From positions 1,481,001 through 1,545,000 of the forward strand of contig NZ_CP122539.1 in assembly GCF_029853675.1 (NCBI RefSeq): a stretch of 64,000 bases of DNA. Reading direction: 5' to 3'. Of the stretch, positions 19,587 to 35,891 are shown piece after piece. The position numbers and the translations under genes were made by a program. Source of the DNA: Tenacibaculum tangerinum (GTDB taxonomy: Bacteria; Bacteroidota; Bacteroidia; Flavobacteriales; Flavobacteriaceae). The notes under the pieces were generated by a model, which was given only the letters and a program-made list of their open reading frames with translations, was not told the origin of the DNA and ran no database searches. Positions within the stretch are counted from its first letter, which is position 1, and each line of letters begins with the position of its first letter.

Positions 19587-19626
19587 TTTAATTAATTCAT
19601 TTCCAAATCACAAATGAATACATTGA

Positions 19627-19782: not shown

Positions 19783-19970
19783 AGTCTTTTTTTAATTAAT
19801 ATTCTGTACTCATAAGACGAGTGTACAGCAATCTTGTTACACATGCATGGAACACTTCATTGATATGAACTCGATGTAGCTTTTTTATTTGGCAAAAGGA
19901 TTTAAAATTTATTTTCTCAAAAATAACCTAGTCAAACTACGCACTTTAAATTGTCTGTAATTTATATATA

Positions 19971-20125
19971 CCAACACCTAAACAGCAAAATTGCACGCTA
20001 CTATATATACAAATTACGGACTAAAAAACAATATAACTAAATGATTATCAGCGATATTTTTTTTAAAAAATCTATAAAACTTTTTTGCAGAGACCCGAAA
20101 ATGTCTATATATTTAGGTGTTGGCA
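19971..20125. repeat. Imperfect palindromic inter-gene element (attC-like), first of the series
   Basis: CCAACACCTAAA (19971-19982) is exactly repeated in inverse as TTTAGGTGTTGG (20112-20123), and both outer flanks contain TATATA. Just outside and inside lies a second inverted pair, GTCTGTAATTT.TATATA (19954-19970) with TATATA.AAATTACGGAC (20003-20022). Single-stranded it can fold into a long hairpin. It lies 20 bp before the next gene. Confidence 0.5.
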
Positions 20126-20144
20126 ATAATTTAGAACATCCATC

Positions 20145-20870
20145 ATGAGAAAACAATTTCTGATTTTAATTTTATTATTTTACATTCCAATCGTTGGTCA
20201 AAATATTAAAAATGATAGTTTGCAAGACCAAAACAATATTTTAGAATTAGAAAAGAAAGTTCTTATTCTTGAAACTAAACTTGAAACTGTTGATTCAACT
20301 AATACTAAAATTTTGAATACAGTTTACTGGACATTAGGAGGATTAATGTCTGTTTTTATTGCTATAATAGGTTTAAACTTCTTTCAAAACTTCAATCTGA
20401 ATAGGAAAAAAATTGATTCTATAAAATGGGAATTAAATAATGAACTTTTTAAAGCGATAAATACTATGACTGACAGCATTCTAAAAACAAATAAGGAACT
20501 TAAAAAAGAACTGAAGGAGGATATTGATTCTGGAATCAAAACTTCATTCCAATCTTTCGACTATGAAATAAATAGACTTAAAGATAACTATAAAGAGGTT
20601 TATAGGAGCGAGTTAATTAGAAAAGCATTTGAGCATAAAGAAAAGAATCAAATGGGTTATATACTTAACCTAATTGAGCTATTAAAATTAGATATTGAAA
20701 AAGGACATGATTTTAGAATTCACGAATCATTGCAATTAATAACCGATTGTTTGGACAGTGGATTTAAAGGAAATTCTGATAGTATAACTCGATTAAACGC
20801 TACATTAAAAAAATTGCCCGAAGAGTATGATTTACAGAAAAAAAATATCGAATCGAAAATGACATTATAA
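20145..20870 (+). CDS. Membrane-anchored coiled-coil protein of unknown function
   Basis: 241 residues. N-terminal hydrophobic signal (1-19), short coiled coil (about 28-50), a transmembrane helix (about 60-82, VYWTLGGLMSVFIAIIGL) and a long charged helical C-terminal region. I do not recognise the family. It is the first of the single, rightward genes in the accessory region. The stop codon is followed within 20 bp by an IS1182 relic. Base composition is AT-rich like the following unknown genes. Confidence 0.6.
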   Translation: MRKQFLILILLFYIPIVGQNIKNDSLQDQNNILELEKKVLILETKLETVDSTNTKILNTVYWTLGGLMSVFIAIIGLNFFQNFNLNRKKIDSIKWELNNELFKAINTMTDSILKTNKELKKELKEDIDSGIKTSFQSFDYEINRLKDNYKEVYRSELIRKAFEHKEKNQMGYILNLIELLKLDIEKGHDFRIHESLQLITDCLDSGFKGNSDSITRLNATLKKLPEEYDLQKKNIESKMTL

Positions 20871-20885
20871 AAAACTATTGTCAAC

Positions 20886-21140
20886 ACCGGTAGCTGATGG
20901 GCAACCCCCAAATTTCAAAAAACGGATTTCCTTTTAAAGCTACCTAAGGGCTTTATTTAGAACGAAGCCAAAATTTTTAACTCCTTATTTTGCTTTTTTT
21001 CTGAGCTTAAAACGAAATTTATTAAGTGATATCGTACGTTTTTTAACCAAAACACAAAAGCAACCACTTTGGCCTCAGTTTTAGTAGGTTTACCCAAGAA
21101 CTTTAATAGTTTTTAATGTTGATAGCTGCATGCACTTATT
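20886..21140 (-). mobile_element. IS1182-type transposase relic, copy 1 (C-terminal end only)
   Basis: About 250 bp match the copy at 23562-23828. On the minus strand the C-terminal transposase residues TKTEAKVVAFVFWLKNV (and on to ASF) are readable, but a lost A in an A-run and a 13-bp deletion break the frame. The match ends abruptly at 21140, where the oxygenase pseudogene begins. Confidence 0.7.
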
Positions 21141-21587
21141 AGCTTGTTTGATACCTATGATGATGAGCTGCGAAAAAGCACTGTGGTGTTTATTGAAAAC
21201 ACTCAAGAAAACGAATGGATTTACAACCGATTGGCTGGTTTGGCGATTCAATGCAACAACGAACGGTATGGATTTGATTTATTGGGTTTTCACAACAATT
21301 TGCAATTGGCTAGCTATGCGGAAGGAGATTTCTTTGACTGGCATTTGGATTTCGGAGCGGGAGAAATTTCTGACAGAAAACTCAGCATTTCCATGCAGTT
21401 ATCGGATTCTGATAACTATGAAGGTGGCGACTTATAGTTTATGATGAATCAAAAAATTGTAACTGCTCCTAGAGAAAAGGGAACCATTATTGTTTTTCCG
21501 TCATTTATAATGCACCGTGTGACGCCCATCACCAAAGAGATTCACAAATCTATGGTGGATTGGGTTGCGGGGCCTCCGTATAGGTAG
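21141..21587 (+). pseudogene. 2OG-Fe(II) oxygenase, N-terminally truncated and with an in-frame stop
   Basis: The frame LFDTYDDELRKSTVVFI leads into DWHLDFGAG, the HxD iron ligands of a prolyl-4-hydroxylase/PKHD-type 2-oxoglutarate dioxygenase. After YEGGDL a TAG at 21435-21437 replaces the expected Gln codon CAG of the common GGDLQF motif; the frame then continues through FPSFIMHRVTPITK (distal His and Arg) to VDWVAGPPYR and a stop at 21587. The first 50 or so residues are missing and the left border coincides with the IS1182 relic. It is therefore a decayed gene truncated by the element. Confidence 0.8.
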
Positions 21588-21590
21588 GAA

Positions 21591-21639
21591 TTAGTTCTTA
21601 GTCCTTAATGCTTAGTTATTAGTTCTTGGGAGTTAGCGA
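21591..21639. repeat. Degenerate 7-bp-phased repeat (7 units)
   Basis: Consecutive heptamers TTAGTTC, TTAGTCC, TTAATGC, TTAGTTA, TTAGTTC, TTGGGAG, TTAGCGA directly after the oxygenase pseudogene. Confidence 0.6.
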
Positions 21640-21697
21640 CTTATTTTTATAAGATGCTCCTACAGTGTTAAGGCAGTTAGCTTTGATATAAAGGTGT

Positions 21698-21781
21698 GTG
21701 CCGTAGTATCTGCGGAGCACGCCGTGATAGCAGCGACACGTGCCGTGGTGTCTGCGGAGCATGCCGTACTATCAGCGACCC
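21698..21781. repeat. GC-rich tandem repeat, 2 x 42 bp (4 x about 21 bp)
   Basis: Unit 1 starts GTGCCGTAGTATCTGCGG at 21698, unit 2 starts GTGCCGTGGTGTCTGCGG at 21740. Each unit splits into two related halves beginning (G)TGCCGT or CGCCGT and ending in a GCGGAGC or AGCGAC motif. GC is far above the surrounding DNA. 21782-21935 contains nothing else recognisable. Confidence 0.7.
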
Positions 21782-21935
21782 AAACAGTGATATAAAGAAC
21801 GTTACTGCTCTAAAAAGCAACTTTTATAACCTAAATAGGGGAGCTTATGGGATTCCGTAAGATTGTGTGGGTTCAATGTTTTAGATTCGCAAGAATTGTA
21901 AGAACAACTCGATTTTTATAATTAATTAACAAATA

Positions 21936-22078
21936 GCAATAACTCGTTAACAACTTTACTTTTCATAAAGCATTGGTTTTGATATATTTGATAGCGTTTA
22001 ATCATTGTTAAATTTTAGTTTACCCTATGTTTTTATCGGGATAACAAAACTAAAGTTTGGTATAAAACGAGTTAGCAT
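21936..22078. repeat. attC-like palindromic element before the HNH gene
   Basis: TAACTCGTT (21940-21948) is inversely repeated as AACGAGTTA (22066-22074), 135 bp overall, with an inner inverted pair TTTTAGTTT / AAAACTAAA (around 22010-22054). The right end reads ACGAGTTAGC, like the GTTAGC/GTTAGGC ends of the other elements. Confidence 0.5.
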
Positions 22079-22094
22079 CAATTAAAACCGATTT

Positions 22095-22811
22095 ATGGCA
22101 ATCACCAAAAAATTTGATAATTACACAATTGCCGAAGTAATAAAAGCCTACTTATTAGACGGACAGAGTCACAGGAAAATCCAAAGAGAAATTCTCGATT
22201 TGCCTGCACCAGCAAGAGGTGGCGGATTTGTAGCTATGGAATTGTTACATCATTATAATATACGTGGCGACAAGAAAGGACTTTTGAATAAAAAAACGAT
22301 TTCTGAATTAAATACCACTGATGATTTAAGGTTTAAAAAAGCATTAGAAATCATTGCCGAATTGAATTTTGTTGAAGAAGAAGCTGAGGAATATTTTGTA
22401 AGAAATCAAGAAATAAACAAAAACAATAACCCGACTGAATCTAAAAGTGAAATAAAAGTTAGAGCTTATCAAAACAAGCTTAGGGAAATTGTTTTAGATA
22501 ATTACAATTCAACTTGTGCTATCTGTGAAATAAATAAAACTGACTTACTCGTCTGCAGCCATATTAAACCCTGGTTTGTTGACAAAGAAGAAAGATTGAA
22601 CCCCAAAAACACTATTTGCTTTTGTGTCCTTCACGATAAAATGTTTGACAAAGGATATTTTTCCTTGGACTCTAATTTCAAAATAATCTTTGGAGAAAAA
22701 GCAGATAATCAAATAAAGGAATTGTTAAAAACAAGTAAATTTAAAAGACCAAAAATAAATGAACCAAATGAAGTATTCTTAAAATACCATTTTGAAGAAA
22801 TTTGTAGATAA
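22095..22811 (+). CDS. HNH endonuclease domain protein
   Basis: 238 residues. The N-terminal half (1-110) is a helical region beginning KKFDNYTIAEVIKAYLLDG, with no motif I recognise. The C-terminal half is an HNH_2-type nuclease: Cys141-x2-Cys144 (CAIC), His156 in CSHIKPW, Asn in LNPKN (169-172) and His180 in LHDKMFDKGYFSLD. Such standalone HNH proteins act as restriction-like nucleases in many defence loci. No methyltransferase neighbour exists, so a modification-dependent or stand-alone nuclease is likelier than a classic type II system. The next gene starts 19 bp later, so the two may be cotranscribed. Confidence 0.82.
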   Translation: MAITKKFDNYTIAEVIKAYLLDGQSHRKIQREILDLPAPARGGGFVAMELLHHYNIRGDKKGLLNKKTISELNTTDDLRFKKALEIIAELNFVEEEAEEYFVRNQEINKNNNPTESKSEIKVRAYQNKLREIVLDNYNSTCAICEINKTDLLVCSHIKPWFVDKEERLNPKNTICFCVLHDKMFDKGYFSLDSNFKIIFGEKADNQIKELLKTSKFKRPKINEPNEVFLKYHFEEICR

Positions 22812-22830
22812 CTATTCAATATTATAAAAT

Positions 22831-23544
22831 ATGGACGAAATAAATTGGATTGAATTAATTATTAAGGTTACGCTATTCTTAATAGCATCATACTTTATTT
22901 TTTATAGGTCTTGGTTAAAGTCTCTCGGTAATGAAGTTGCAAAATTATCAACTCGAAAACAACTTACGGAATTGGAAGAAACAGTAAAAAAAGATTTTAA
23001 TGAAAAACTTGAATCATATAAAAGTAAATTAAATGAAGAATTAGCATTAAAAATCGAACCTATAAAATCCGATTTAGCAAAAAGCAATATCACTCATCAA
23101 ATACAATTTGGTGTTCTACATCAAGAAAGAGCAAAAATCACGATTGAATTATATAAAAAATTACAGGAAGTCCATTCAGCAATGGTTATTTGGACTGCTT
23201 TTATGCATCCAATAATTGAAAATGCAGAGAAAGAAGCATTAGAACGGACGGACAGAGTTAATAAAGCTATGGACGATTTTAGAAACTTCTATATTGTAAA
23301 TAAAATCTATTTCAGCCTAAGTTTCTGTAAGGTTATAGATAGTGTATTTCAAGAATATTGGGATAAGGCTTGGAATTATAATTATAAACAGCAAAGAATT
23401 CAAAGTGGACAGTTGCCAAAAGAATTTTACAAGGAATATTCGGAAGAAATGTCCAAAATATCAAAAGAAATTAGAGAGCAGCTTCCAAAAAAAATTGAAG
23501 AAATCGAAGCTATGCTGAGAAAAATTTTAAATGTAGAAGATTAA
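22831..23544 (+). CDS. Membrane-anchored coiled-coil protein of unknown function
   Basis: 237 residues. One N-terminal transmembrane helix (about 6-26), then a coiled coil (about 40-90, heptads with TRKQLTELEETVKKDFNEKL) and a helical C-terminal domain with WTAFMHP near residue 129. I do not recognise a named family. It follows the HNH gene by 19 bp, the only close gene pair among the unknown genes here, so a functional pair is possible. Confidence 0.6.
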   Translation: MDEINWIELIIKVTLFLIASYFIFYRSWLKSLGNEVAKLSTRKQLTELEETVKKDFNEKLESYKSKLNEELALKIEPIKSDLAKSNITHQIQFGVLHQERAKITIELYKKLQEVHSAMVIWTAFMHPIIENAEKEALERTDRVNKAMDDFRNFYIVNKIYFSLSFCKVIDSVFQEYWDKAWNYNYKQQRIQSGQLPKEFYKEYSEEMSKISKEIREQLPKKIEEIEAMLRKILNVED

Positions 23545-23559
23545 AATAACTGTGCACAA

Positions 23560-23990
23560 CAATGGTAGCTGATGCACAACCCCTAAATTTCAAAAAATGG
23601 AATTCATTTTAAAGCTATGTAAGGGTTGTATTTAGAACGAAGCCAAAATTTTTAACTCCTTATTTTGCTTTTTTTCTGAGCTTAAAACGAAATTTATTAA
23701 GTGATATCGTACATTTTTTAACCAAAACACACAAGCAGCTGCTTTGGCCTCAGTTTTACTAGGTGTACCCAAGAATTTTAATAGTTTTTTAATGTTGTAT
23801 GCAGCCCCTGCCATGAGCATGCACTTATTCGCCCCATAGATACCTCTAACATTAACTTTGCGCAAGCCCATATACTGTGTTAAGGTGCCAAAAAAGGGTT
23901 CTACCGTGCTTTGCCGTTTGGCTTTGATGTAACTTCCCTGTCGAGTGTTTACCTGGGCGATATTGTGCTCATACTGCGCCTAGTAATAGG
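23560..23990 (-). mobile_element. IS1182-type transposase relic, copy 2 (C-terminal end)
   Basis: On the minus strand about 115 residues of the transposase C-terminus are readable: QYEHNIAQVNTRQGSYIKAK, STVEPFFGTLTQYMGLRKVN, GANKCMLMAGAAYNIKKLL, ending ASF and TAA at 23632. A TAG lies upstream near 23980 and sequence similarity stops by about 23990. The 23562-23630 flank is shared with copy 1, so that part belongs to the element end. Confidence 0.8.
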
Positions 23991-24070
23991 TGATTGACAT
24001 ACAATAATATAACATGAAACTCGCTCGTTTATTGGAAAAAATAAAATCGTATATTAGGGTTGTGCAACAG

Positions 24071-24222
24071 GCACAATGTATAACCGCAATTACGACGTAT
24101 TCGACTACCCTTCGACTCCGCTCAGGGTAAACTGAATCCACTCAGCAATTGCCTAACACAGTTGCTTAACAACCAAATTATCACTAAATTAGACCCTAAC
24201 TGACGGTTATACGAACTGGTGT
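24071..24222. repeat. attC-like palindromic element (homologue of 30488-30616)
   Basis: GTATAACCG (24078-24086) is exactly inversely repeated as CGGTTATAC (24204-24212). The interior contains CGTATTCGACTAC, AATCCACTC and CAATTGC, all shared with the element at 30488. Between them is an inserted CCCTTCGACTCCGCTCAGGG (24108-24127), absent from the homologue. Confidence 0.65.
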
Positions 24223-24259
24223 AGAGCATTTGACCAAACACAAATAAAATGAATTCAAA

Positions 24260-24916
24260 TTGAGTATTTTCTTCAAAATAGTACAAAACGAAAATCAACG
24301 ATTGACAAAACAGGATTTTTTAATTGGAACGATTATCGCTTTTGCATTACTGATAGCTTTTACACTTGGAAGTTCTGGAATGAGTTTAATAGCTACTTTT
24401 GTTCCTGGACTTATTTTTAGTTGGAGCTTGTTTGCCTTTTTGTACTTCAAGAAAATTGACCTTCCTGATTTCAATATTTTCTTACCTGTATATCTTTTGA
24501 CTTTGGGTTGGCAGTTCATTCATTTTTCGGAAGAATTTACAACAAACTTCAAAGAACTATTTCCGATAGCCTATGGTGGACAACCATACACGAACAATAC
24601 TTTTGTGATATTTAATATGTCAGCATATTTTGTGTTTATAGTAACGCCTATTTTGGTTTATTTTAAAGGGCTGAAATTTTTATTCATACCGATTTTATTT
24701 TTTACGGTTTATGGAGCAATGGGCAATGCGATTTCTCACACTTGGTGGAGAATTTATTACGGTGAATATTTTCCAGGCTTCTACACTGCCCAACTTTATT
24801 GGGTACTCGCACCGATTTTGTTAACAATGATTATCAAATCAAGAAAAGTAACGGGAATTTATATCATTGTGTTTTCAATAGTTTTATTAACAACACTAAC
24901 CCTTTTAATGGAGTAA
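24260..24916 (+). CDS. HXXEE-domain-like membrane protein
   Basis: 218 residues with six predicted hydrophobic helices. The motif HFSEEF (His-x-x-Glu-Glu) in the third helix region and ISHTWW with YYGEYFPGFYTA further on match the HXXEE family layout, in which conserved His/Glu residues in the membrane suggest an enzyme or ion-binding role of unknown kind. The only in-frame start is TTG at 24260; an ATG 11 bp upstream (24249) is out of frame and stops after four codons, so a small indel at the start is possible. Single gene between two palindromic elements. Confidence 0.6.
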   Translation: MSIFFKIVQNENQRLTKQDFLIGTIIAFALLIAFTLGSSGMSLIATFVPGLIFSWSLFAFLYFKKIDLPDFNIFLPVYLLTLGWQFIHFSEEFTTNFKELFPIAYGGQPYTNNTFVIFNMSAYFVFIVTPILVYFKGLKFLFIPILFFTVYGAMGNAISHTWWRIYYGEYFPGFYTAQLYWVLAPILLTMIIKSRKVTGIYIIVFSIVLLTTLTLLME

Positions 24917-24920
24917 ACGT

Positions 24921-25052
24921 CCTACAACAATGTACATAAAAAATAGTCAAAACAGCAATAAATTCAAGGCTTTTAGCTCTTATCAAACTTTATATTTAAC
25001 CGAAGGTTTAGAGCTTCGAAAGCGCCTACTTTATATATACTAACCGTTAGGC
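24921..25052. repeat. attC-like palindromic element with GTTAGGC right core
   Basis: 132 bp beginning CCTACAAC four bases after the previous stop codon and ending CCGTTAGGC (core GTTAGGC at 25046-25052). GTACATAAAAAATAG on the left pairs imperfectly with CTACTTTATATATAC on the right; inner arms AAGGCTTTTAGCTCT and AGAGCTTCGAAAGCGCC pair around a loop of about 30 nt. Arms with scattered mismatches and bulges are the attC style. Confidence 0.65.
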
Positions 25053-25078
25053 ACAAGCCTACAAACATCAAGAAAAAC

Positions 25079-25714
25079 ATGGCTGTTTGGCAATATCAAT
25101 TAAACATAATTCCAAGAAAAGCTATACTCGAAAAGTATGGAGAAATACCCAAAACTTTATTCATAGATTTTGATGGCTGGGAAAAATATTGGGAGAATGT
25201 AGATTATAATAATGGATTTCCTGATCCTGATTTTGAGGATGCAAAAACCATAAAATGGTGGGCTAATACATTACTTGATATTAATGATATTTCTAAACAA
25301 ATTGACAAACTAGTTGCCCGAGCCCAATGGGGAAATGAATCATCAAACTCTATCAACTGGAAAGGAAATTCTAATAACTATGAAGATAATGACTGTTATA
25401 TATCATATAATAAAACAAAAAAGACTATTAATGAGTTTCAATTCAGAGTTGATCTAAGAAAGAAAGAAAATTTTTCCCTATTCTTAAAAGGTATACTTGA
25501 ATTGTGCAAAAAAAATGAATTAATGGTTTTTAATACAAATGGAGCCTTATTTGAGCCAAAAATAGAAGTGATTTATGAAGACTTAAAAAAATCTAATGCT
25601 GTAGCTTTTTTAACAGACCCTGAAAAATTTCTTGATAAAATTGCATATAGAGAAAATATCAAGATTCAAAAAAAGGTGAATTTATGGACGAAAATTAAAA
25701 CTTTTTTGAAATAA
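25079..25714 (+). CDS. Unknown protein (cassette-type single gene)
   Basis: 211 residues, soluble, no signal peptide. It begins MAVWQYQLNIIPRKAILEKY, and is rich in Trp and acidic residues in the first third. I know related 'MAVWQ...' proteins only as uncharacterised, often in similar single-gene settings and sometimes near toxin/immunity genes; no function is assigned. ATG lies 27 bp after the GTTAGGC end of the preceding palindrome. Confidence 0.6.
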   Translation: MAVWQYQLNIIPRKAILEKYGEIPKTLFIDFDGWEKYWENVDYNNGFPDPDFEDAKTIKWWANTLLDINDISKQIDKLVARAQWGNESSNSINWKGNSNNYEDNDCYISYNKTKKTINEFQFRVDLRKKENFSLFLKGILELCKKNELMVFNTNGALFEPKIEVIYEDLKKSNAVAFLTDPEKFLDKIAYRENIKIQKKVNLWTKIKTFLK

Positions 25715-25723
25715 AATACCAAT

Positions 25724-25855
25724 GCCTAACACGATATATAATTAATTGCTAGTACTCGCCTACTTCTGAAAACCCTCACGGATTTTCAGTTTGGTATGTA
25801 CTTGCTAATTTAGACACTTAAAAAACGTAACTAGCTCTATACCAATCGTTTTCAT
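25724..25855. repeat. attC-like palindromic element with GCCTAAC left core
   Basis: Starts with GCCTAAC (25724-25730) nine bases after the stop codon. ACGATATATA...GCTAGT on the left is matched inversely by ACTAGCTCTATACCAATCGT on the right; the centre has CTGAAAA (about 25772) against TTTTCAG. Homologous over most of its length to 29532-29656 and in its centre to 28568-28710. 25856-25960 holds nothing else recognisable. Confidence 0.65.
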
Positions 25856-25960
25856 TAATCCCCCACATAAAGAAACTCTATTAATTTATTAAGTTAACGA
25901 GTGAAATTTTTAGAGGAGTTTAAAAGAACAAAATTATCGTTATTCAGAATTTGAAAAACT

Positions 25961-26416
25961 ATGAATTATAATAAATTAGATAAGAATTGGAAAGAATTCG
26001 CAAAAAAAGAAAATGCGGAATTAGTATATATTGAAAAAGAATTATTTAACGCAATCAGATGTGAATATATACTTACAATCACTGCTGAATTTTATAAAAC
26101 TAAAATTGTTGGAACATTATGGAAATCGCAGGATGGACATAATAGAAACAATACTATAATTTATATAAAATATAATAATAGAGATTCTTCACAAGCAATC
26201 GATATGAATGATAGAGGAATTAAAAGTTTGTTTGCGAAAAATGAACTAAAAGCTTTAGAAAATAATATTTACCAAAGTTTTAAAAAAGTAGGCGGAAAGG
26301 AATTAAAACTATATGAACATCTTTTGAGACTCGAACTAAACAAAATCATCTCTAAGCACTCTGAATTTGAAGAAATATCTGAAATAATAAATGTGATAAA
26401 AAACTGCACACAATAA
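25961..26416 (+). CDS. Unknown small protein
   Basis: 151 residues, soluble and highly charged, no signal peptide or recognised domain. Beta-rich N-terminal half (YILTITAEFYKTKIVGTLW) followed by a helical C-terminal half. Very AT-rich codon use. Single gene between two palindromic elements. Confidence 0.55.
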   Translation: MNYNKLDKNWKEFAKKENAELVYIEKELFNAIRCEYILTITAEFYKTKIVGTLWKSQDGHNRNNTIIYIKYNNRDSSQAIDMNDRGIKSLFAKNELKALENNIYQSFKKVGGKELKLYEHLLRLELNKIISKHSEFEEISEIINVIKNCTQ

Positions 26417-26418
26417 AA

Positions 26419-26544
26419 ACAACTATAATTCATTCCGGCTAAATTTCCCCGCTGGAAATTCAATCTTATTGATTATCTTTCCACTACAAAGGAAAACGAC
26501 TCACTTACATTTCCTGCAAAAAATTATACACAAAGCCATTAGGC
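26419..26544. repeat. attC-like palindromic element with ATTAGGC right core
   Basis: Begins CAACTATAATT just after the stop codon and ends AATTATACACAAAGCC plus ATTAGGC (26538-26544), so TATAATT pairs with AATTATA and CCGGCT with AGCC; a small inner hairpin TTTCCccgctGGAAA is present near 26444. Confidence 0.5.
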
Positions 26545-26569
26545 TTAATAATGAAAAAAGAACGACATA

Positions 26570-27154
26570 ATGGATAAATTCAAATTCGGACTATTTGACA
26601 TCTTCGTTTACACTTTGCCAGGGTTTATTGTTTTAGTGTCTTTATATTTCCTTTGTCTTGATATTGATTTAACGATTGTTGGAATAATACAGAAATCAAT
26701 GAATACATTAGATAAACTAAGTTTTAATTCTTTCTTATTGGTATTTGTTTGTTCTTATATACTTGGCTTGGTTTTGGACTATTTTGGATATAATTACTTC
26801 AATTTGGTTGGAAAAAGAATTTGGAAGAAAGCTTTAAAAGGAAAAGAAAAGAGTTTATCAAAAATGGAAAATAAATATGTTCTTGTAAGACATTTTAGTA
26901 AAGAAAACTTTATTTACCTTGAACTTTGGAATGCCTCTCGTGGTATGTCCTTTAATCTTTCGTTAGCTTTTATTATTTTAGGTTTATCAATTCTAATTAA
27001 AATTATTGAATTTTCATATTTCAATTCTGACTGGATTATAGCCATTATTGGATGTATAATATTTTCATTTGTGATGTTAAGAAGGGCAGTAACTTATCAT
27101 AAGTGGAGCCATAATACATTAGAAAAGACTGTTGATAAATTGAAACTAAAATAA
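26570..27154 (+). CDS. Unknown four-helix membrane protein
   Basis: 194 residues. Hydrophobic segments near residues 9-30, 52-72, 127-145 and 150-170, with a charged cytoplasmic loop between helices two and three containing YVLVRHFSKENFIYLELWN. I know related proteins only as uncharacterised. It follows a palindromic element by 25 bp and is followed by another by 10 bp. Confidence 0.6.
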   Translation: MDKFKFGLFDIFVYTLPGFIVLVSLYFLCLDIDLTIVGIIQKSMNTLDKLSFNSFLLVFVCSYILGLVLDYFGYNYFNLVGKRIWKKALKGKEKSLSKMENKYVLVRHFSKENFIYLELWNASRGMSFNLSLAFIILGLSILIKIIEFSYFNSDWIIAIIGCIIFSFVMLRRAVTYHKWSHNTLEKTVDKLKLK

Positions 27155-27164
27155 AAATCACAGA

Positions 27165-27351
27165 GCCTAACAAGATGTGTAACCAATAGGGCATTTAAAG
27201 ATAAACTGAAAGTCCTGTTCATTGAGCAAGCAACGCCAAAACAACGTTTTGACGTTTAACAAAAAAAGTAAAAACGTTTGTTTTGACTTAGTGGAAACCG
27301 AAAGTAAATTGCTTCGAATCTGCCCTTCTATCAACACACAGAACGTTAGCG
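27165..27351. repeat. Largest attC-like palindromic element (GCCTAAC ... CGTTAGC)
   Basis: 187 bp. Outer ends GCCTAAC (27165-27171) and CGTTAGC (27344-27350) are complementary but for one bulged base; next AAGATGTGT faces ACACACAG, then AGGGC faces GCCCT. Near the tip GCCAAAACAACGTTTT pairs with AAAACGTTTGTTTTGAC with one bulge around a loop of about 22 nt. The element is a single long bulged hairpin exactly between a stop codon (10 bp left) and a start codon (20 bp right). Confidence 0.7.
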
Positions 27352-27370
27352 ATAATTTGTCAAACTAAAA

Positions 27371-28567
27371 ATGAAACATAAAGTAATACTATTAATAGTT
27401 CTTATATCGAGTCATATTTATTCACAGAATATTGACTTGAATATTGGAAAAGTAACATCAAAAAAATATTATGAAGAAATCGGTTTTGAGTTTATAAAAG
27501 ATAAAATAATTATCCCTGTATCTATCGAAGGAAAAGAATATAAATTTATTCTTGATACCGGTGCTCCAAATATTATTTCAAACGAAATAAACAATTTAAT
27601 AAGCCCTGAGCTAATTCAAACAATACCAGTTTCCGATGCGAGTGGTAAGAAGGAAAATTTAAAAGTTGTATCTGTAAAAAAATTAATGCTTGGTAATATT
27701 GAGTTTATTAACACCGCAACTTTAGTTTATGATTTAAACTCAAATCCAATTTTTAAGTGTTTTGGTATAGATGGTTTTATTGGTAGTAATATGCTTAGAA
27801 AATCAATTATTCAAATTGACAGCAAGAAAAAAATATTAACCATTACAGATAGTCAGAAAAAGTTATCTCTAAATAAAAAAGAATCCATTAAAATTAAACT
27901 TATAGGAAATCAAAGTAGTCCTTATATCTGGATAAATTTAAAAGGGTTAGATAATGGCAAAGAAAATGTGTTAATAGATACTGGAATGGATGGACTCTAT
28001 GATGTCTCTAAAAGAAATTATCAAATATTTAAAGAAAAAGAAATATTTAATGTTACTGGAAAAAGCAAAGGAGCTTCCTCTTTGAGTCTTTTTGGAGATG
28101 TTCCTGTCAATGAACATTATGAATTGTTGTTACCTTCTCTAAAACTAGTAGACACAGAATTTGAAAATGTAGTTACTCATACTACCAATGACAATAATTC
28201 TAGAATTGGTGCAGAACTACTCGAATATGGAATAATGACGATCGACTTTAAACATAAAAGATTTTATTTTAAATCAAATTCTCGTAAAATAAATCTAAAT
28301 GATTTTGGATTTGGATTTACTAGAACTCTGAAAGACGAAAAACTGATAATTGGCTTTGTATGGGACCAAGAATTGAAAAGCAAATTATCTTATGGAGATG
28401 AAATCATAGAAATTAATGGTAAACCTGTAAATATCTGTAATTTAATAACTAAAAATATAATCAATAAAAATGATAAGACTCTAAAAATGAAAATTAAGCC
28501 TAAAAAAGGAGAACTATTTGAAATTAGTATAAATAAAAAGACTATCGCCAATAGTGGTTCTAAGTAA
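27371..28567 (+). CDS. Retropepsin-like aspartic protease with PDZ domain
   Basis: 398 residues with a signal peptide (1-19). Two aspartic-protease motifs occur, FILDTGAPNIIS (Asp62) and VLIDTGMDGLYD (Asp203), giving the duplicated single-chain arrangement, followed by a PDZ domain (about 310-385, YGDEIIEINGKPV). The family is widespread in Bacteroidetes as 'aspartyl protease family protein'; substrates are unknown. Exported. It is a single gene between two palindromic elements, larger than its neighbours in the array. Confidence 0.8.
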   Translation: MKHKVILLIVLISSHIYSQNIDLNIGKVTSKKYYEEIGFEFIKDKIIIPVSIEGKEYKFILDTGAPNIISNEINNLISPELIQTIPVSDASGKKENLKVVSVKKLMLGNIEFINTATLVYDLNSNPIFKCFGIDGFIGSNMLRKSIIQIDSKKKILTITDSQKKLSLNKKESIKIKLIGNQSSPYIWINLKGLDNGKENVLIDTGMDGLYDVSKRNYQIFKEKEIFNVTGKSKGASSLSLFGDVPVNEHYELLLPSLKLVDTEFENVVTHTTNDNNSRIGAELLEYGIMTIDFKHKRFYFKSNSRKINLNDFGFGFTRTLKDEKLIIGFVWDQELKSKLSYGDEIIEINGKPVNICNLITKNIINKNDKTLKMKIKPKKGELFEISINKKTIANSGSK

Positions 28568-28710
28568 TTGTTTGTTCTCGCCCACCTTCAACTACGTTTA
28601 GAGTATCACTTCTGAAAAATCCACTGAGATTCTTAGTTTGGTGTGTGCTTGCAAATTTTGTAACTTGTTCTCGCAACTACTCATAGCCGAAACCAATATC
28701 ACACATTAGA
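28568..28710. repeat. Palindromic-type inter-gene element related to 25724-25855
   Basis: Shares CTCGCC.ACCTTC, CACTTCTGAAAA, a GATT..TAGTTTGGT.TGT.CTTGC.AATTT block and an AACT..TC/GC segment with the element at 25724. The terminal cores are not recognisable, so it may be a decayed copy. Confidence 0.45.
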
Positions 28711-28733
28711 AATCTAGCCTAGTCCTGTTTAAT

Positions 28734-29531
28734 ATGAAAAAGCTAATTTATTTAAGTTCCGTTCTGTTTATATTAATTTCTTGTAATCATAAAAAAGAAA
28801 ACCAAATAATAAAAGCAGACCTTATACCTGAAGAACAACAAAGCGAGCTATTTAAAGCAATAGCAACAATGGATAGTTTATATTTTTCGGCTCAAAACGT
28901 CTGTGATTTAGAAAAATACGCTTACTATTTGTCGGATGATTTTGAGTTTTTTCATGATAAAGCAGGATTAACTGCATCTAAGGAAGAGGAAATGAAAGAT
29001 ATGTCTATTTTTTGTGGAGAAGAACAAAGGAATAGGCAACCTCTTAGAAGGGAGTTAAGTGAAGGTACGCTCAAGGTTTATCCGATTGATAATTACGGAG
29101 CTCTTGAGTTTTGTGATCATGTTTTTTACCTGCAAATCAATGATGGGACAGAAAAAGTTGTAGGTTCTGGTAAATTGACTGCATTATGGAAAAAAGAAAA
29201 CAATGAATGGAAATTAGCACGTGTAATAAGTTATGACCATCAGCATCTTGCCGAAGTTGAACTGACAAGTGAAATTCTGGATCAATATGTGGGTGATTAT
29301 ATTCTTCCTGATAGAATAGTAAATATTAAAAAAGAAGGAAAACTACTTAGAGCAACAGATGTTAATGATGGAAAACCAGGTTGGAATACGCTCCTATTTC
29401 CTGAATCAGAGAATACTTTCTACTTCAACTACGAGAATGTTGTGTACAAATTTATAAAATCTGGAATCAAAATTAAAACCTTGAATATATACGAGAACGG
29501 GAAACTCATCGAGGAAGCAAAAAGAAAATAA
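28734..29531 (+). CDS. NTF2-like (DUF4440) lipoprotein
   Basis: 265 residues. Lipoprotein signal with lipobox ILISC (Cys17). Residues about 38-175 form an NTF2-like/DUF4440 fold: start ATMDSLYFSAQNVCDLEKYA, SDDFEFFHDKAG and end WKKENNEWKLARVISYDHQ. The remaining 85 residues are a beta-rich tail (LDQYVGDYILPDRIVNIKKEG) like the extra domain found after some beta-lactamase-like or NTF2 proteins. It probably lies in the outer membrane facing the periplasm. Function unknown. Confidence 0.75.
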   Translation: MKKLIYLSSVLFILISCNHKKENQIIKADLIPEEQQSELFKAIATMDSLYFSAQNVCDLEKYAYYLSDDFEFFHDKAGLTASKEEEMKDMSIFCGEEQRNRQPLRRELSEGTLKVYPIDNYGALEFCDHVFYLQINDGTEKVVGSGKLTALWKKENNEWKLARVISYDHQHLAEVELTSEILDQYVGDYILPDRIVNIKKEGKLLRATDVNDGKPGWNTLLFPESENTFYFNYENVVYKFIKSGIKIKTLNIYENGKLIEEAKRK

Positions 29532-29656
29532 TATAACGTATGGTAACGTCTATAATTAATGGCTAGTACTCGCCTACTCGCGAAAATCTTCGCAGATTTT
29601 TTTATTGTTTTTTTATTTGCTAAATTAATGCTTAAAACACGCAACTAACTTTATAT
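29532..29656. repeat. attC-like palindromic element (homologue of 25724-25855)
   Basis: Begins TATAACGTATGGTAAC immediately after the stop codon; TCTATAATTAATGGCTAGTA and CTCGCCTACT are nearly identical to the 25731-25755 region. The right end reads CAACTAACTTTATATGAATG, and the next gene starts within it. Confidence 0.6.
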
Positions 29657-29658
29657 GA

Positions 29659-30489
29659 ATGACTGTAAAAAATCTTTCTGACATATCGTTTGAAACTATT
29701 CTAGAGTGCTTCTTAAAAGCATTTGAAAACTATTTTGTCGAATTACCTCGTAACGAAAAATACTATAAACAACGATGGAAAGCGGCTAAGGTAGACTTTA
29801 GATATTCCTATGGCATGTTTGAAGGAGAAAAGATGGTTGGCTTCATACTCCATGCTCTTGACAAAAGAAAAAATAAGCTAATCGCATTCAATACGGGAAC
29901 AGGAGTTATTCCTAAATACAGAGGGAAAAGAATAGTGAATTCTATTTACACCTATGCGTTAAAAGACTTAAAAGAAAAAAACGTTGAACTGAGTGTATTA
30001 GAAGTCATCACTAAAAATGACATCGCCATTAAATTATACGAAGGTATTGGATTCGAAAAATGTAAAGAATACAAATGCTTCAAAGGTGAAATTCAAATTG
30101 ACTCGACTGAAGAAGTCATTTTAAATGAAATAGCCTTAAACGATGTTGATTGGAATAGTTTACCTAATCAAGGTTCATATTCTTGGGACAATCAAAAAGA
30201 ATCTATTTTGGAAGGAAACTATCGATTTTTTCAAGTAATACGTAAAATTGAACCAGAGTCTTTTTTTATAATTAACCCTGAAATAAATTACTTGGCACAA
30301 TTTGACTTGTTAAAAAAAGAGAATAATGGCTGGGCTAGACTTTTCGCAGGAATAATGAAAATTTCCGAGTACATTAAAATTAATAACGTTGATAATAGAT
30401 TGAAAGAAAAGCTAGGTACACTAGCTTTAGTTGGATTAAAAAACACAGTTGATCAATTTGAAATGGAATTAAAAATGAAAAGATGGTAA
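29659..30489 (+). CDS. GNAT-family acetyltransferase
   Basis: 276 residues. The N-terminal 145 residues are a GNAT fold with acetyl-CoA loop VIPKYRGKRIVNSIYTYAL (near 87-105) and a terminal LYEGIGFEKCKEY motif. The C-terminal 130 residues resemble a second, degenerate GNAT-like half with no acetyl-CoA loop. Substrate unknown. Start is ATG at 29659, a few bases after the preceding palindrome. Confidence 0.8.
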   Translation: MTVKNLSDISFETILECFLKAFENYFVELPRNEKYYKQRWKAAKVDFRYSYGMFEGEKMVGFILHALDKRKNKLIAFNTGTGVIPKYRGKRIVNSIYTYALKDLKEKNVELSVLEVITKNDIAIKLYEGIGFEKCKEYKCFKGEIQIDSTEEVILNEIALNDVDWNSLPNQGSYSWDNQKESILEGNYRFFQVIRKIEPESFFIINPEINYLAQFDLLKKENNGWARLFAGIMKISEYIKINNVDNRLKEKLGTLALVGLKNTVDQFEMELKMKRW

Positions 30490-30616
30490 CAATGTATCCG
30501 TAACTACAGCGTATTCGACTACGTCCGAATCCACTCCGAATTGCTATAGCTCTTTCATTATCCGATAAATATTTATTAAATTGGTAGTAACTGATGGTTA
30601 TACCCACCGTTATGTC
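30488..30616. repeat. attC-like palindromic element (homologue of 24071-24222)
   Basis: Begins AACAATGTATCCGTAACTAC at the GNAT stop codon and ends ACTGATGGTTATACCCACC plus GTTATGTC (30609-30616). It shares GTATTCGACTAC, GAATCCACTC and AATTGC with 24071-24222. Confidence 0.65.
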
Positions 30617-30720
30617 TAATATTGACCCGCCCTGAATAAAGGTTACATAATTTTAATCATTATGTATAAAAATGTCAAAGTAATCAGACGGTATTTAGAA
30701 CACTTTAAACTGAAAATTGT
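30617..30720 (+). mobile_element. IS3-type orfA relic
   Basis: ATG at 30662 opens MYKNVKVIRRYLEHFKLKIV, which resembles the N-terminus of IS3-family OrfA proteins of Bacteroidetes (MYKND-VIRRYSE-FKLK type). Only about 20 residues match before the sequence changes. The preceding TAATATTGACCCGCCCTG may be the element's left end. Confidence 0.45.
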
Positions 30721-30953
30721 ATCTCTACCAGGCATTTACAAGCGTAGATCACGCCAAAGGAGAAACAAAAAGTGCTGTCAATTTATACAACCAAATTAAA
30801 ATTATAGGTATCTTTAGGATAGAAAACACCGAATATGGTATCGTTGAAATCAGCGTAAAATCTACCGAAGCTTCGGACCATATTTCAGGACTAGACACCC
30901 TGAAAATGCACAAAAAAATCATACACAAACATCATACAAGCATTAGAAAATGA
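30717..30953 (+). CDS. C-terminal gene fragment or small unknown protein
   Basis: 78 codons from a TTG start; the region from YQAFTSVDHAKGETKSAVNL onward looks like real coding sequence (FRIENTEYGIVEISVKSTEA). It has no plausible start of its own and begins at the border of the IS3-type relic, so it is probably the 3' end of a gene cut by the element. Its stop codon overlaps the start of the methyltransferase gene (ATGA), which suggests the lost gene and the methyltransferase were one operon. Family not recognised. Confidence 0.45.
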   Translation: MYLYQAFTSVDHAKGETKSAVNLYNQIKIIGIFRIENTEYGIVEISVKSTEASDHISGLDTLKMHKKIIHKHHTSIRK

Positions 30954-31747
30954 GCGAAACAAGAACAAAATGGCAACCTGAGCTTTACAATCAAAAGCAC
31001 TCATTTGTTTATCATTATGGAGAGGCGCTGATAAAGTTGCTCAACCCAAAACAAAATGAACGTGTTTTGGATGTAGGTTGTGGCTCGGGACAGTTGACAG
31101 ATAAAATAAACAACCTCTCAAATGAAGCCATTGGAATTGATAAATCTGCTGAAATGATTGCGGATGCCAAATCAAAATTCCCAAACATCGAATTTCATGT
31201 AGGAGATGCTGAAAACTTCGCATTCGAGAAAAAATTTGATGCTATTTTTTCAAACGCAACCCTTCACTGGGTAAAAAATTATAGGAGAGCCATACAATGT
31301 ATGTATGATAATTTAAAACCAAATGGAAAAATTGTAGTGGAATTTGGAGGAAAAGGAAATGTACAGACTATTGTTAATCAGTTGAGAAACTCTTTAAAAA
31401 AAAGAAACTATAAAGAACAATCTGATTTGCACTTATGGTATTTTCCTTCAATCGGAGAGTATTCAACTGCACTCGAATCGGCTGGATTTAGGGTTCTTTT
31501 AGCTGAGCATTACGACAGACCCACTGAACTTGCAGATGAGAATACAGGAATAAAAGATTGGATTTCTATGTTTGCTGAAAGCTTTTTTATCGGGGTTTCA
31601 GAAAATCACATAGCGGAAATTAAATGTGAGGTACAGGAAAAAATTAAGAAACAATGTTTAATTAACGGAAAGTGGTTTGCTGATTATAAAAGAATTAGAA
31701 TAGTTGCAACAAAAGAAAAACTGAACATTATACCATCGAGTGTGTAA
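30950..31747 (+). CDS. SAM-dependent methyltransferase (trans-aconitate methyltransferase-like)
   Basis: 265 residues, class I Rossmann fold. Motif I VLDVGCGSGQLTDKI (39-53), acidic residue after beta-2 in AIGIDKSAEMI, motif post-II FDAIFSNATLHWVKNY (near 94-109) and NGKIVVEFGGKGN. The last is characteristic of the Tam-like group acting on small carboxylates, but the substrate is not provable. Start ATG overlaps the upstream fragment's stop by four bases. A decayed partial copy of this gene's 3' third lies at 33192-33485. Confidence 0.82.
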   Translation: MSETRTKWQPELYNQKHSFVYHYGEALIKLLNPKQNERVLDVGCGSGQLTDKINNLSNEAIGIDKSAEMIADAKSKFPNIEFHVGDAENFAFEKKFDAIFSNATLHWVKNYRRAIQCMYDNLKPNGKIVVEFGGKGNVQTIVNQLRNSLKKRNYKEQSDLHLWYFPSIGEYSTALESAGFRVLLAEHYDRPTELADENTGIKDWISMFAESFFIGVSENHIAEIKCEVQEKIKKQCLINGKWFADYKRIRIVATKEKLNIIPSSV

Positions 31748-32406
31748 ACTTATTTTTTCGGTTTTGTAACCTACGAGTCTTCAATAATTAAATAGATAAC
31801 TCCGAGAGGTCTGTAGTGTTTTTATTTGCAGCCTTGTTGTTATATCGAACAAATACTGCTTTTACATAGGTACAGAGGAACATAAGATGCTACAAAACCA
31901 TACAAACAACATTATGTATAATTGAAAACAATCAATATTGATCATATCTTTCAAATTATGCTTTTTACTATTCATTATCCTTTTCAGGTTAAAGTATTTT
32001 TTACAAAAAATGGTTGAAGAGTATAAGCCCGTAAAAAACAGCCTTATAATTGGAACTAGAAATACTTTTTTTGTCTTTTATTCAAAAAGATCATACCCAA
32101 ATACTTCCTGAAAACAAAGGTCAGCAGATAAACAAACTATTTTTGTATATCTAGTTTAACCCTCAAACTCGATAAAGTTAGAATTATTTAATCTTTCCGA
32201 ACTTTTTAAAACAAAAAGTAAAATTACAGCATTCATAATGGAAATACGATTGTAAAAACCCATTACGTTAACTTTGTTTACAACTGTAGAATACCTAAAT
32301 TGCATTTCAATTTTTTGTTTTACAGTCTTTTACAAGTTTTATTTAAGATTGTCTTTTAAACCCTATTACCCGGCTAACAACCAATTAAAACTAAAAAAAC
32401 AACATA
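31748..32406. other. 659-bp intergenic stretch, no gene recognised
   Basis: AT-rich with stops in all frames. No TPP-riboswitch-like sequence is seen before the ThiG gene. No repeat shared with the rest of the window was found by eye. It may be decayed DNA. Confidence 0.5.
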
Positions 32407-33177
32407 ATGACACTAAACCAAAATGATGATTTTTATATCGCCGAAAAGGCATTCAAATCAAGATTAATAGTCGAAATAACCGGATTTGATCAGACAATGC
32501 TCACCAATCTATTGAATGCGAGCCAATCCGAGATTGTCACCCACACACAAATACAGTCGCTCGATAAACCCAAAAGTAAAGATGGATTACATTGTGAAAA
32601 TGTTCCTAATCACATTACATACATTCCCAATACCCATGGTTGCAAAACTGCCGATGAAGCTGTTGCATTGGCAAGATTAATACGAAAAGCAGGTTTGTCT
32701 GATTGGATTAAACTTGAAGTTTCCCCATATAATACTCATTACATGAGCGATGGTGTAGAAACCCTTAAAGCGGCCGATATTTTAGTAAAAGAGGGCTTTA
32801 AAGTACTTCCCTACATCCATGCCGACCCAGTATTGGCTAAAAGACTACAAGAGGTTGGTTGCTCAACAGTTATGCCACTGGGTTCACCTATTGGTTCAGG
32901 AAAAGGGCTTATAACCAAAGAATTTATTGAAATGATTATTGAAGAAGCGAACGTTCCTGTTATTGTTGATGCTGGTATTGGTAAACCCTCGCACGCTACT
33001 GAAGCCATGCAAATTGGTGCAGATGCAGTAATTGTGCATACCGCTATTATTTATGCGGAAAATCCAATATTACAGGCACAAGCTTTTAAAACTGCCGTTC
33101 AAGCGGGAAGAGCTTCTTTTTTAGCAAAGGGAGATTATTCAAAATACAAAGAAAACAATCCAAAAATCAGTACATAA
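32407..33177 (+). CDS. thiG: Orphan thiazole synthase-like protein (ThiG family)
   Basis: 256 residues, the length of ThiG, a TIM-barrel enzyme that builds the thiazole phosphate of thiamine from DXP, dehydroglycine/iminoglycine and ThiS thiocarboxylate. The Schiff-base lysine is in WIKLEV (Lys102); the phosphate-site loops MPLGSPIGSGKGL and VDAGIGKPSHATEAM are conserved. The first 75 residues are divergent: the usual LVGTGKY-type segment reads LIVEITGFDQTM, and the region after it is shortened. None of thiS, thiF, thiH, thiC or thiE is nearby and no riboswitch is visible. It lies between a methyltransferase gene and a decayed copy of that gene's 3' end. Confidence 0.82.
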   Translation: MTLNQNDDFYIAEKAFKSRLIVEITGFDQTMLTNLLNASQSEIVTHTQIQSLDKPKSKDGLHCENVPNHITYIPNTHGCKTADEAVALARLIRKAGLSDWIKLEVSPYNTHYMSDGVETLKAADILVKEGFKVLPYIHADPVLAKRLQEVGCSTVMPLGSPIGSGKGLITKEFIEMIIEEANVPVIVDAGIGKPSHATEAMQIGADAVIVHTAIIYAENPILQAQAFKTAVQAGRASFLAKGDYSKYKENNPKIST

Positions 33178-33191
33178 TAATCTAAAATAGT

Positions 33192-33485
33192 GAAACTATA
33201 AAGAACAATCTGATTTATACTTATGGTATTTTCCTTCAATCAAAGAGTATTCAACTGCACTCGAATTGGCTGGATTTAGGGTTCTTTTAGCTAAGCATTA
33301 CGACAGAACCACTGAGCCTGCAGAAGAGAATACGGGAATATGGGAATAAAAGATTGGATTTCTGTGTTCGCAGAAAGCTTTTTTATCGGGGTTTCAGAAA
33401 ATCATATAGCGGAAATTAAAACTGAAGTACAGGAAAAAATTAAGAAACAATGTCTCATTAAAGGAAAGTAGTTTGCTGAATTTTA
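33192..33485 (+). pseudogene. Decayed partial copy of the methyltransferase gene
   Basis: About 290 bp match 31404-31690 at about 90% identity by eye. Differences include an 8-bp tandem insertion (GGGAATAT duplicated, near 33335) that shifts the frame and TGG to TAG in AAGTAGTTTGC (about 33470). It starts abruptly at codon 152 equivalent and has no 5' part. Confidence 0.9.
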
Positions 33486-33705
33486 AGGTGTCCTAAAAAG
33501 GGGAAGGCTACAATCTATGTAATACACATAATGTTTAAAAACAATTTCTTTGTGCCGTTTATCAGAAAATCTGACAGACTTTTAATAAGAGTAGTACTTT
33601 TTTGCTAAATTAGCTAAAGAAGCAACAACACCAATTCCTACACAAACTGTTGGCATGAGTGTAGTTTACTAAAATATAAGATTAATTATATAAAAAGACA
33701 CCATT

Positions 33706-34191
33706 ATGAAAAGCATACTAAAAATATTAATAACGATTATTGTCTTCTTCACATTTATCAATGCGTTAATTTTTATAGTAATGGGTATTATGAATATTTA
33801 TAAGGGAATTTCAGGTCTTTTCAATGCTTCGCAAGAAGTTTCATATGCTGCACTGAAAATATTAGATTCATTAGATTTATTTTTGGTAGCTTTAGTTTTT
33901 ATCGTCTTTTCCTCGGGCATTTATAATATATTTTTTCCTCAAAATAACAACAACGCAGCGTCTACTGAGAAAAAACATATTTTACATATTAATAGCTTTT
34001 CACAATTGAAGGTTTTACTATGGCAAACTATCTTAACGACTCTAGTAATTCATTTTGTTGCTAGCATTATACATGCACACGGAAAAATAGATTGGTATTT
34101 TTTAATACTACCCATTTCTATATTACTACTTACCGTGAGTCTCGGGTTATTTCAGTTTAAGGGAAATAACAAAAAAGGTGATGGGCACTAA
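33706..34191 (+). CDS. YqhA-like (UPF0114) membrane protein
   Basis: 161 residues. Four hydrophobic helices (about 5-30, 52-75, 102-122, 130-150). The stretch LDSLDLFLVALVFIVFSSGI and the following IYNIFF resemble the conserved IDLFLLA..L.IFGLGLYELF region of UPF0114/YqhA proteins, and INSFSQLKVLLWQTILT matches the later I.SLDDLK.KL segment. Function of the family unknown. It has its own leader of 200 bp (33490-33705) in which I see nothing specific. Confidence 0.6.
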   Translation: MKSILKILITIIVFFTFINALIFIVMGIMNIYKGISGLFNASQEVSYAALKILDSLDLFLVALVFIVFSSGIYNIFFPQNNNNAASTEKKHILHINSFSQLKVLLWQTILTTLVIHFVASIIHAHGKIDWYFLILPISILLLTVSLGLFQFKGNNKKGDGH

Positions 34192-34226
34192 ATTTGAAAA
34201 TTAAAGCTTATAGTATAGAGCCTAAT

Positions 34227-35229: not shown

Positions 35230-35595
35230 GATAGTACAAAATTCACTTCGAAAGATTAATACACTTTCAGACTGAAGGATTTGCATCTTGAATAACAGTT
35301 GCTTTTTTTAATAAGCTCAAAAAATGTGGTATTCCATTATTAATGGTGTCGCCAGAATACCTAATTGTGTAGTCTATCCGATTCTATAGTCTCACCCAAA
35401 AATTATTTCTAATAAATAATTGTTTCCATTTCATTCAACTAATTTTACTCGAAGAGACAATGGGTCTAAATTCGAAATAATAAAAATAAATCGTAAAGTA
35501 TTAATTTTACGGTTTTTCTTTACTTTTTTACGGTTTTTCTTCACTTGTTCTTAAATTAAATATCTAATTTTCAAAAACTTTAAAACTTTAAAATT
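35230..35595. other. 365-bp leader region before the double-glycine peptide gene
   Basis: No gene. Near 35505-35552 the block TTTACGGTTTTTCTT occurs twice in tandem (TTTTACGGTTTTTCTTTAC and TTTTACGGTTTTTCTTCAC), close upstream of the peptide gene. On the minus strand a short coding-like fragment GDTINNGIPHFLSLLKKATV (about 35354-35270) is readable and may be debris of another gene. Confidence 0.45.
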
Positions 35596-35817: not shown

Positions 35818-35821
35818 CTTC

Positions 35822-35882: not shown

Positions 35883-35891
35883 TAAAAACCA

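Follow-up and report, generated by a model that had tools for sequence, protein, structure and literature searches.

What assembled a row of rightward genes that are set apart by imperfect palindromes and have no integrase beside them? The row (about ten open reading frames, ORFs) occupies positions 19,971-30,621 of the window, by which we mean the whole 64,000-nucleotide stretch analysed, bases 1,481,001-1,545,000 of the single 3.61-Mb contig that forms the genome of Tenacibaculum tangerinum. An initial annotation had read it as an attC-like cluster without a local integrase, or as a Bacteroidetes analogue of one. The one-directional genes and their palindromic spacers were found where it had placed them, together with the motifs it quoted (GCCTAAC at 25724 and 27165, CCTACAAC at 24921, GTTAGGC at 25046, ATTAGGC at 26538 and CGTTAGC at 27344). 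We put at roughly 0.85 the probability that the array is a cluster of integron-type cassettes, now decayed and in relatives run by a tyrosine recombinase that is not the integron integrase, IntI. The observations behind this reading concern the structure of the sites, the cassette units, the breakpoints at cassette starts, the linkage of recombinase and array, and the lineage of the recombinase. The window array is an ordinary, eroded example of a kind that is itself unusual, and no description of the flavobacterial system was found in the open-access literature searched.

Sites, cassettes and breakpoints

The palindromes are attC-type recombination sites. Each opens with AAC, 3 nt and a 6-nt L box, runs through a stem into a variable loop and back through the stem and L box, and closes with 5 or 6 nt and GTT. 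This anatomy was built into a covariance model, R1, whose seed of 66 related sites, aligned in arms and loops, came entirely from outside the window (the host's other arrays and those of relatives). Changes on both sides occur in 12 of 17 pairs, and the signal is lost when the pairings are slid. With this purpose-built model, the covariance search that the initial annotation had proposed yields five good sites in the window (E 8.7e-17 to 9.5e-6; Table 1), four weak ones (E 0.02 to 0.07; the one at 33520-33661 is not part of the array) and a partial match (E 0.28). Folding of the spacers, proposed in the same place, gives hairpins for the first site and for 27155..27357. Over the whole host genome R1 finds 87 sites, in about 17 places (E<=0.1, with 86 at E<=7e-4), and a blastn search with a 156-base spacer finds 26 places, itself included, with sites at 71 to 90% identity to this probe. 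A genome-wide scatter of palindromes unconnected to single genes had been named as grounds for giving up the idea; what was found is that the sites lie mostly in arrays joined to single genes, and that in 58 of 60 intervals the site shares its strand with the longest ORF.

Excision and joining of entire cassettes at C/GTT would require the variable bases that follow a cassette's start GTT to match those that precede its own end AAC. Among 48 consecutive pairs from arrays of the host and its relatives, compared over 6 nt, 44 match at all six positions, two at five and two at one. The total of 276 out of 288 nt compares with a permutation mean of 110.6 and was reached in none of 20,000 shuffles; across one spacer, by contrast, the mean is 2.05 of 6 (88 sites). 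In the host genome alone, where 47 of 62 pairs could be scored, 37 match at 5 to 7 of 7 nt, for a total of 265/329 against a shuffled mean of 116 and maximum of 158, and the value across one spacer is 2.8 of 7 (67 sites). The six testable cassettes of the window array give 32/42 complementary positions in the 7 nt past the core, equalled by 2 of 720 permutations, and the cores of the remaining cassettes are too worn for the test. This places the window array in the site family, as a worn member. The complementary ends that the initial annotation had described are real; they belong, however, to the start and end of one cassette and not to the two ends of one spacer, across which only 0 to 2 of 7 positions agree (four spacers).

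Comparison of all arrays against one another reveals shared cassettes whose edges fall at sites. A cassette of Algibacter onchidii (L074), 93% identical to one in L142, starts exactly at CGTT, the DNA 5' of it being unrelated, and its end is the CGTT of its own site. The filter left nine pairs of homologous cassettes from different genomes, all nine with the start edge at CGTT, in line with the expectation of breakpoints at the right core. Pair identity is 0.32-0.33 at 20 to 60 nt 5' of the start, 0.57 in the last 6 to 20 nt (the L box region), 1.0 at CGTT and 0.78-1.0 just inside, and it falls to 0.33-0.44 immediately past the end GTT. Five of the nine pairs share a site at the 3' end that stops at CGTT. 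Two homologous cassettes with genes about 87% alike (L074:13691-14658 and L080:12228-13249) differ in both start and end hexamers and in the 3' site; despite the changed hexamers, the ends still match within each cassette. Either both site halves were replaced together, or one follows the other.

The recombinase at the head of the arrays

An integrase is indeed missing from the window: the host genome has ten matches to TIGR02249, none of them within the window and the nearest 13.7 kb past its right end. The genome does contain two decayed integrase genes, which head other arrays. At 241-242 kb a tyrosine recombinase gene lies on the same strand as the adjoining array, its frame stopping after the HxLRH box and continuing in pieces; the gene on its other side we take to be mutS2. 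The second fragment, at 842.6 kb, stands ahead of an array at 845-860 kb. Cassettes near the host's decayed integrase (L009:835-5641) encode a caspase-domain protein and a NACHT protein; cassettes of L088 and L099 match Mrr and HNH endonucleases, with some PADLOC hits.

The association of recombinase and array extends through the host family. Relatives of the integrase occur at E<=1e-30 in 126 of 199 family genomes, and R1 sites in 175 of the 199 (threshold E<=1e-6, no more than 15 scored per genome), namely in 124 of the 126 genomes with the integrase and in 51 of the 73 without (Fisher p 3.7e-9). Sixty integrase loci from relatives and the host's own yielded 297 sites at E<=0.001. Sites lie downstream of the integrase in 56 of these 61 loci, and in 40 of the 41 where at least 5 kb follows; the 296 downstream sites are all on the integrase's strand, one site is upstream, and the median distance to the first site is 853 bp. 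Twenty-one loci had been searched for seed sites; the other 40, which gave no seed and were fetched almost only downstream, have sites in 36 cases, and all 196 of these sites are on the integrase's strand. A recurrent ATATAAACAAGTTG, or a palindrome ending in GTTG, follows the integrase stop and is attI-like when read by eye. The motif TAnnTTTG, a possible cassette promoter, occurs within 75 nt of the stop in 18 of 68 loci, against a mean of 3.5 and a maximum of 9 in 300 shuffles. Very short sites (about 65-110 nt, little beyond the arms) adjoin some integrases, e.g., at L080:10857-12257. The integrase is also found on plasmids, with three R1 sites after it in Chryseobacterium sp. SNU WT5 (L166) and one weak site in Pontibacter kalidii (L167).

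The initial annotation had expected a tyrosine recombinase with the integron-specific insertion near homologous spacers. A tyrosine recombinase does head the arrays, with the catalytic R-H-R-H-Y in 67 of 68 flavobacterial-type proteins, but the insert, I2, is absent from all 68: the region measures 58-59 residues, compared with 100 in 12 of 12 IntI and 63 and 66 in two Xer proteins. Phylogenetically, the 12 IntI rows form one group (support 100/99) and the 30 flavobacterial rows another (94/97). TIGR02249 matches are below cut-off throughout the host genome and in five of five relatives scanned. Identity with IntI was accordingly rejected, on the missing insert and on placement outside the IntI group (long branches being flagged). 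The closest sequence and catalytic-core fold are those of XerA/XerD (NF040815; PDB 4a8e and 5hxy). Xer recombinases act at dif and are not known to have a large extra N-terminal domain, whereas the flavobacterial integrase usually has such a domain, with a median of 101 residues ahead of the catalytic core (range 0-207) compared with at most 5 in the two host Xer proteins, and is linked to cassette arrays; identity with XerC, XerD or XerA was rejected for these reasons.

Another relative is TpnF, which lies upstream of tet(X3) on Acinetobacter plasmids and is 51% identical over residues 146-376 of the integrase of L085. Its locus has an attI-like palindrome and then GTT ahead of the next gene, as in the flavobacterial loci, but TpnF lacks the N-terminal domain and its locus has no R1 site at E<=0.01. 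TpnF is directly upstream of tet(X3) in L164:5043-7212 (an Acinetobacter indicus plasmid) and in L165 (pHH1107). There tet(X3) is preceded by a palindrome and GTTATGTGCC and followed by AAACGGCTACTAAC, which resembles a cassette end with three mismatches.

Canonical integrons of the same phylum served as a control. Bacteroidota are listed among integron-bearing phyla (PMC8618304, PMC9668308, in the parts available); by the available part of the IntegronFinder 2.0 paper, only In0 elements were known there before one complete integron, in Salinibacter ruber (PMC9024848). In a sample of 247 genomes from the phylum, canonical IntI above cut-off occurs in 70, integrase relatives at E<=1e-40 in 80, and R1 sites at E<=1e-5 in 95 (55 of 121 genera), some weak matches outside the host family possibly being canonical sites. 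None of the 27 host-family genomes in this sample has IntI above cut-off. Outside the family canonical IntI is common (e.g., L239 and L240), above what that part of the IntegronFinder 2.0 paper implies. When run on 20 canonical IntI loci, R1 gives five matches at E<=1, confined to two loci; one locus has four of the five, at 3.8 to 6.5 kb from IntI. At E<0.1 R1 separates the canonical from the flavobacterial type in 19 of 20 loci. Canonical Bacteroidota attC sites have the same geometry and the same 10-nt cassette-end complementarity; both systems therefore use attC-type sites. One published set of attC models covers 11 taxa, and Bacteroidota are not among them in the part of that source available (PMC8352920). 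The flavobacterial recombinase lies upstream of its array on the same strand, whereas end matching in 12 canonical loci places the array 5' of intI in at least five, and cassette genes run opposite to intI in both canonical loci checked. L227, however, has two matched pairs 3' of intI, so that orientation alone does not separate the two systems.

The window array and its island

Table 1. Features of the array and the surrounding island, in window coordinates
Feature	Position	Strand	Evidence
Island with array	19843..35891	.	Flanks nearly contiguous in two sister species; ~16 kb
Worn first site	19971..20129	+	Right core GTT at 20119; palindrome CCAACACCTAAA / TTTAGGTGTTGG by eye and in fold; no R1 match
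Cassette 1 (gene 20145-20870)	20119..20885	+	Start GTTGGCAATA, end TATTGTCAAC; 6/7 complementary past core
Site broken by insertion-sequence remnants (repeat 20869-21114)	20876..22090	+	Right end AGTTAGC near 22070; direct repeat D1 90% to 23544-23789
Two-gene unit: HNH endonuclease 22095-22811, 237-aa protein 22831-23544	22095..23544	+	PF13391 E 1.6e-08, above cut-off; ORFs
Site interrupted by insertion-sequence remnant (~23564-24071)	23545..24230	+	Insertion-sequence end GGGTTGTGCAACAGGCACA at 24057; R1 weak 24063-24230, E 0.051
Cassette 4 (gene 24260-24916)	24218..24928	+	Ends 5/7 complementary; start core worn to GGT
attC-type site	24916..25058	+	R1 59.2 bits, E 1.5e-11
Cassette 5 (gene 25079-25714)	25046..25730	+	GTTAGGC start, GCCTAAC end; 5/7 complementary past core
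attC-type site	25718..25860	+	R1 82.2 bits, E 8.7e-17; blastn 26 genome places including itself
Cassette 6 (gene 25961-26416)	25848..26420	+	5/7 complementary
Worn attC-type site	26402..26550	+	R1 19.0 bits, E 0.02
Cassette 7 (gene 26570-27154)	26538..27171	+	5/7 complementary
attC-type site, long kind	27155..27357	+	R1 weak 27232-27357, E 0.07; hairpin in fold
Cassette 8 (gene 27371-28567, aspartyl protease domain)	27345..28552	+	6/7 complementary; PF13650 E 1.7e-07, above cut-off
attC-type site	28540..28707	+	R1 57.1 bits, E 4.4e-11
Cassette 9 gene, DUF4440	28734..29531	+	PF14534 E 2.6e-12; cassette ends too worn for end test
attC-type site	29535..29674	+	R1 65.6 bits, E 5.2e-13
Cassette 10 gene, GNAT acetyltransferase	29659..30489	+	PF00583 E 6.8e-09; cassette ends too worn for end test
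Final attC-type site of array	30478..30621	+	R1 33.7 bits, E 9.5e-06

Most units of the array are single genes, as had been proposed; the genes at 22095 and 22831 are only 19 nt apart, so this unit has two. Pfam assigns an HNH endonuclease, an aspartyl protease, DUF4440 and GNAT among the ten array proteins; at E<=0.01 it returns nothing for five of them, and a sixth matches only below curated cut-offs. A scan of the window at Rfam gathering thresholds gives two tRNAs and nothing else. The long spacers 20871-22094 and 23545-24259 hold remnants of insertion sequences (ISs). The IS end at 24057, which we take to belong to an IS1182-like element, recurs at nine further places in fetched arrays of the host genome (L091, L092, L095, L098, L100, L102 and L103) at the same position of an attC-type site; since site and position coincide in ten places, this IS seems to target attC-type sites. 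Another repeat of about 1 kb, at 34226-35229, recurs in the host genome (five of the fetched array regions, 94-96% identity) and is probably a further IS.

The array sits within a larger island. Positions 17730-19842 and 35892-35999 align 12 bp apart in the sister species G455 (L199); the flanks are 31 bp apart in G451 (L200) and about 1.26 kb apart in G460 (L198), and the corresponding loci of six relatives contain no R1 site at E<=0.05. Given flanks that are near-contiguous in sister species, 19,843-35,891 is an island gained by the host lineage or lost by the others. It also carries non-array genes, e.g., a methyltransferase and a ThiG-like gene.

Alternatives, mechanism and meaning

How far do these results favor integron-type cassettes run by a recombinase of their own? 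One alternative is an ordinary cluster of attC sites lacking integron-integrases (CALIN), the cassettes having been moved by a canonical IntI, since lost, with the XerA-like recombinase as a bystander. The window array likewise has no integrase alongside, the site geometry is of canonical type, canonical attC sites of Bacteroidota share the 10-nt end complementarity, and canonical IntI is present in the phylum (70 of 247 genomes); yet the host family, with sites in 175 of 199 genomes, has IntI over cut-off in 0 of 27, R1 matches just two of the 20 canonical loci at E<=1, and the arrays are headed by a non-IntI recombinase, the lineage's own, with all downstream sites on its strand. We regard this alternative as improbable. 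More improbable still is an exchange of cassettes that relies solely on homologous recombination among similar sites and involves no dedicated recombinase. In its favor, sites within the genome resemble the blastn probe at 71 to 90% identity, four of the nine cassette pairs have unlike 3' sites, and one cassette that occurs twice in the host genome (99.7% identical, in arrays 0.9 Mb apart) keeps about 30 bp of identity past GTT at one end. Such crossovers would, however, fall anywhere in the site and leave the variable ends unmatched, and the start edges are at CGTT. That the palindromes are miniature inverted-repeat transposable elements (MITEs) or other dispersed repeats, lying between genes by chance, would accord with 87 copies spread over the chromosome, but we give it hardly any credence: the ends vary among copies and match across the gene, not within the copy, site and longest ORF share a strand in 58 of 60 intervals, and the sites are tied to a recombinase. 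The end-matching test contradicts the MITE reading.

Several points weigh against integron-type cassettes run by a non-IntI recombinase. Movement of the cassettes is deduced from comparison of sequences, and no recombination event was observed. The homologous pairs are few, three of the nine representing one cassette in three genomes, and their 3' sites are unlike in four (0.32-0.42 in ungapped comparison), so the site is not always retained with its gene. Ten of the 47 scored host-genome pairs match at 4/7 or less. The seed rule of R1 used the L box and AAC/GTT, the inner stem being weakly selected (at least 4 of 10 positions), and the covariation is therefore only partly independent support. 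Sites also occur in 51 of the 73 family genomes without an integrase match at E<=1e-30, and the support of the integrase clade (94/97) misses the starred level, with long branches flagged. We nevertheless favor this reading, and with it the initial idea of an attC-like cluster or a Bacteroidetes analogue, on the strength of end complementarity, start edges at C/GTT, the strand of the ORFs and the upstream recombinase in relatives.

In the mechanism that we propose, a cassette is as a rule one gene followed by a folding site (AAC-3 nt-L box ... loop ... L box-5/6 nt-GTT), which forms the cassette's 3' end. Cutting and joining would take place at C/GTT, and each cassette therefore bears a variable hexamer of its own at either end, the two copies being inverted. 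In relatives the reaction most likely falls to the tyrosine recombinase whose gene lies just upstream and points the same way, and the attI-like site after its gene would be where the first cassette begins. This enzyme, of a lineage separate from IntI, with a Xer-like catalytic core, no I2 insert and usually an N-terminal domain, would perform the reaction on a folded single strand, the N-terminal domain taking over the job of I2. The window array would have arisen by insertion away from the integrase, and it would now be frozen because the host integrases are broken.

The system shares with integrons, including the canonical ones of Bacteroidota, attC-type sites with R and L boxes and complementarity within the cassette, boundaries at G/TT, single-gene cassettes in one orientation, and an array at the recombinase. 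It differs in a recombinase that lacks I2 (58-59 as opposed to 100 residues), usually has an N-terminal domain of about 100 residues and forms its own clade. To judge by its sequences the system functions as an integron does; it is not filed as one because its recombinase fails the tests for IntI. Gene capture of the integron type may have arisen in more than one way. We lean slightly toward a second, separately evolved type of integron, widespread in Bacteroidota, in which an I2-less tyrosine recombinase reads the folded strand through its N-terminal domain. In the parts of the literature available, the insert is described as not fully conserved in an 'integron-like' subgroup and yet essential for integron function (PMC8138268), and I2 together with recombination of single-stranded DNA as exclusive to integron integrases, I2 being needed for cassette capture (PMC7790495). 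A second type without I2, if true, would contradict the latter view as it stands in that part of the source. A widespread attC-type cassette lineage without I2 makes the exclusivity and necessity of I2 directly testable.

For the flavobacteria, the system may account for part of the variable gene content, as sites are present in 175 of the 199 family genomes, and it brings into view a large, so far unread pool of cassettes, among them some that encode defence-like domains. It also suggests a possible natural history for tet(X), whose likely origin is placed in the Flavobacteriaceae (PMC8069840, in the part available): its neighbor on plasmids is a truncated relative of the flavobacterial recombinase.

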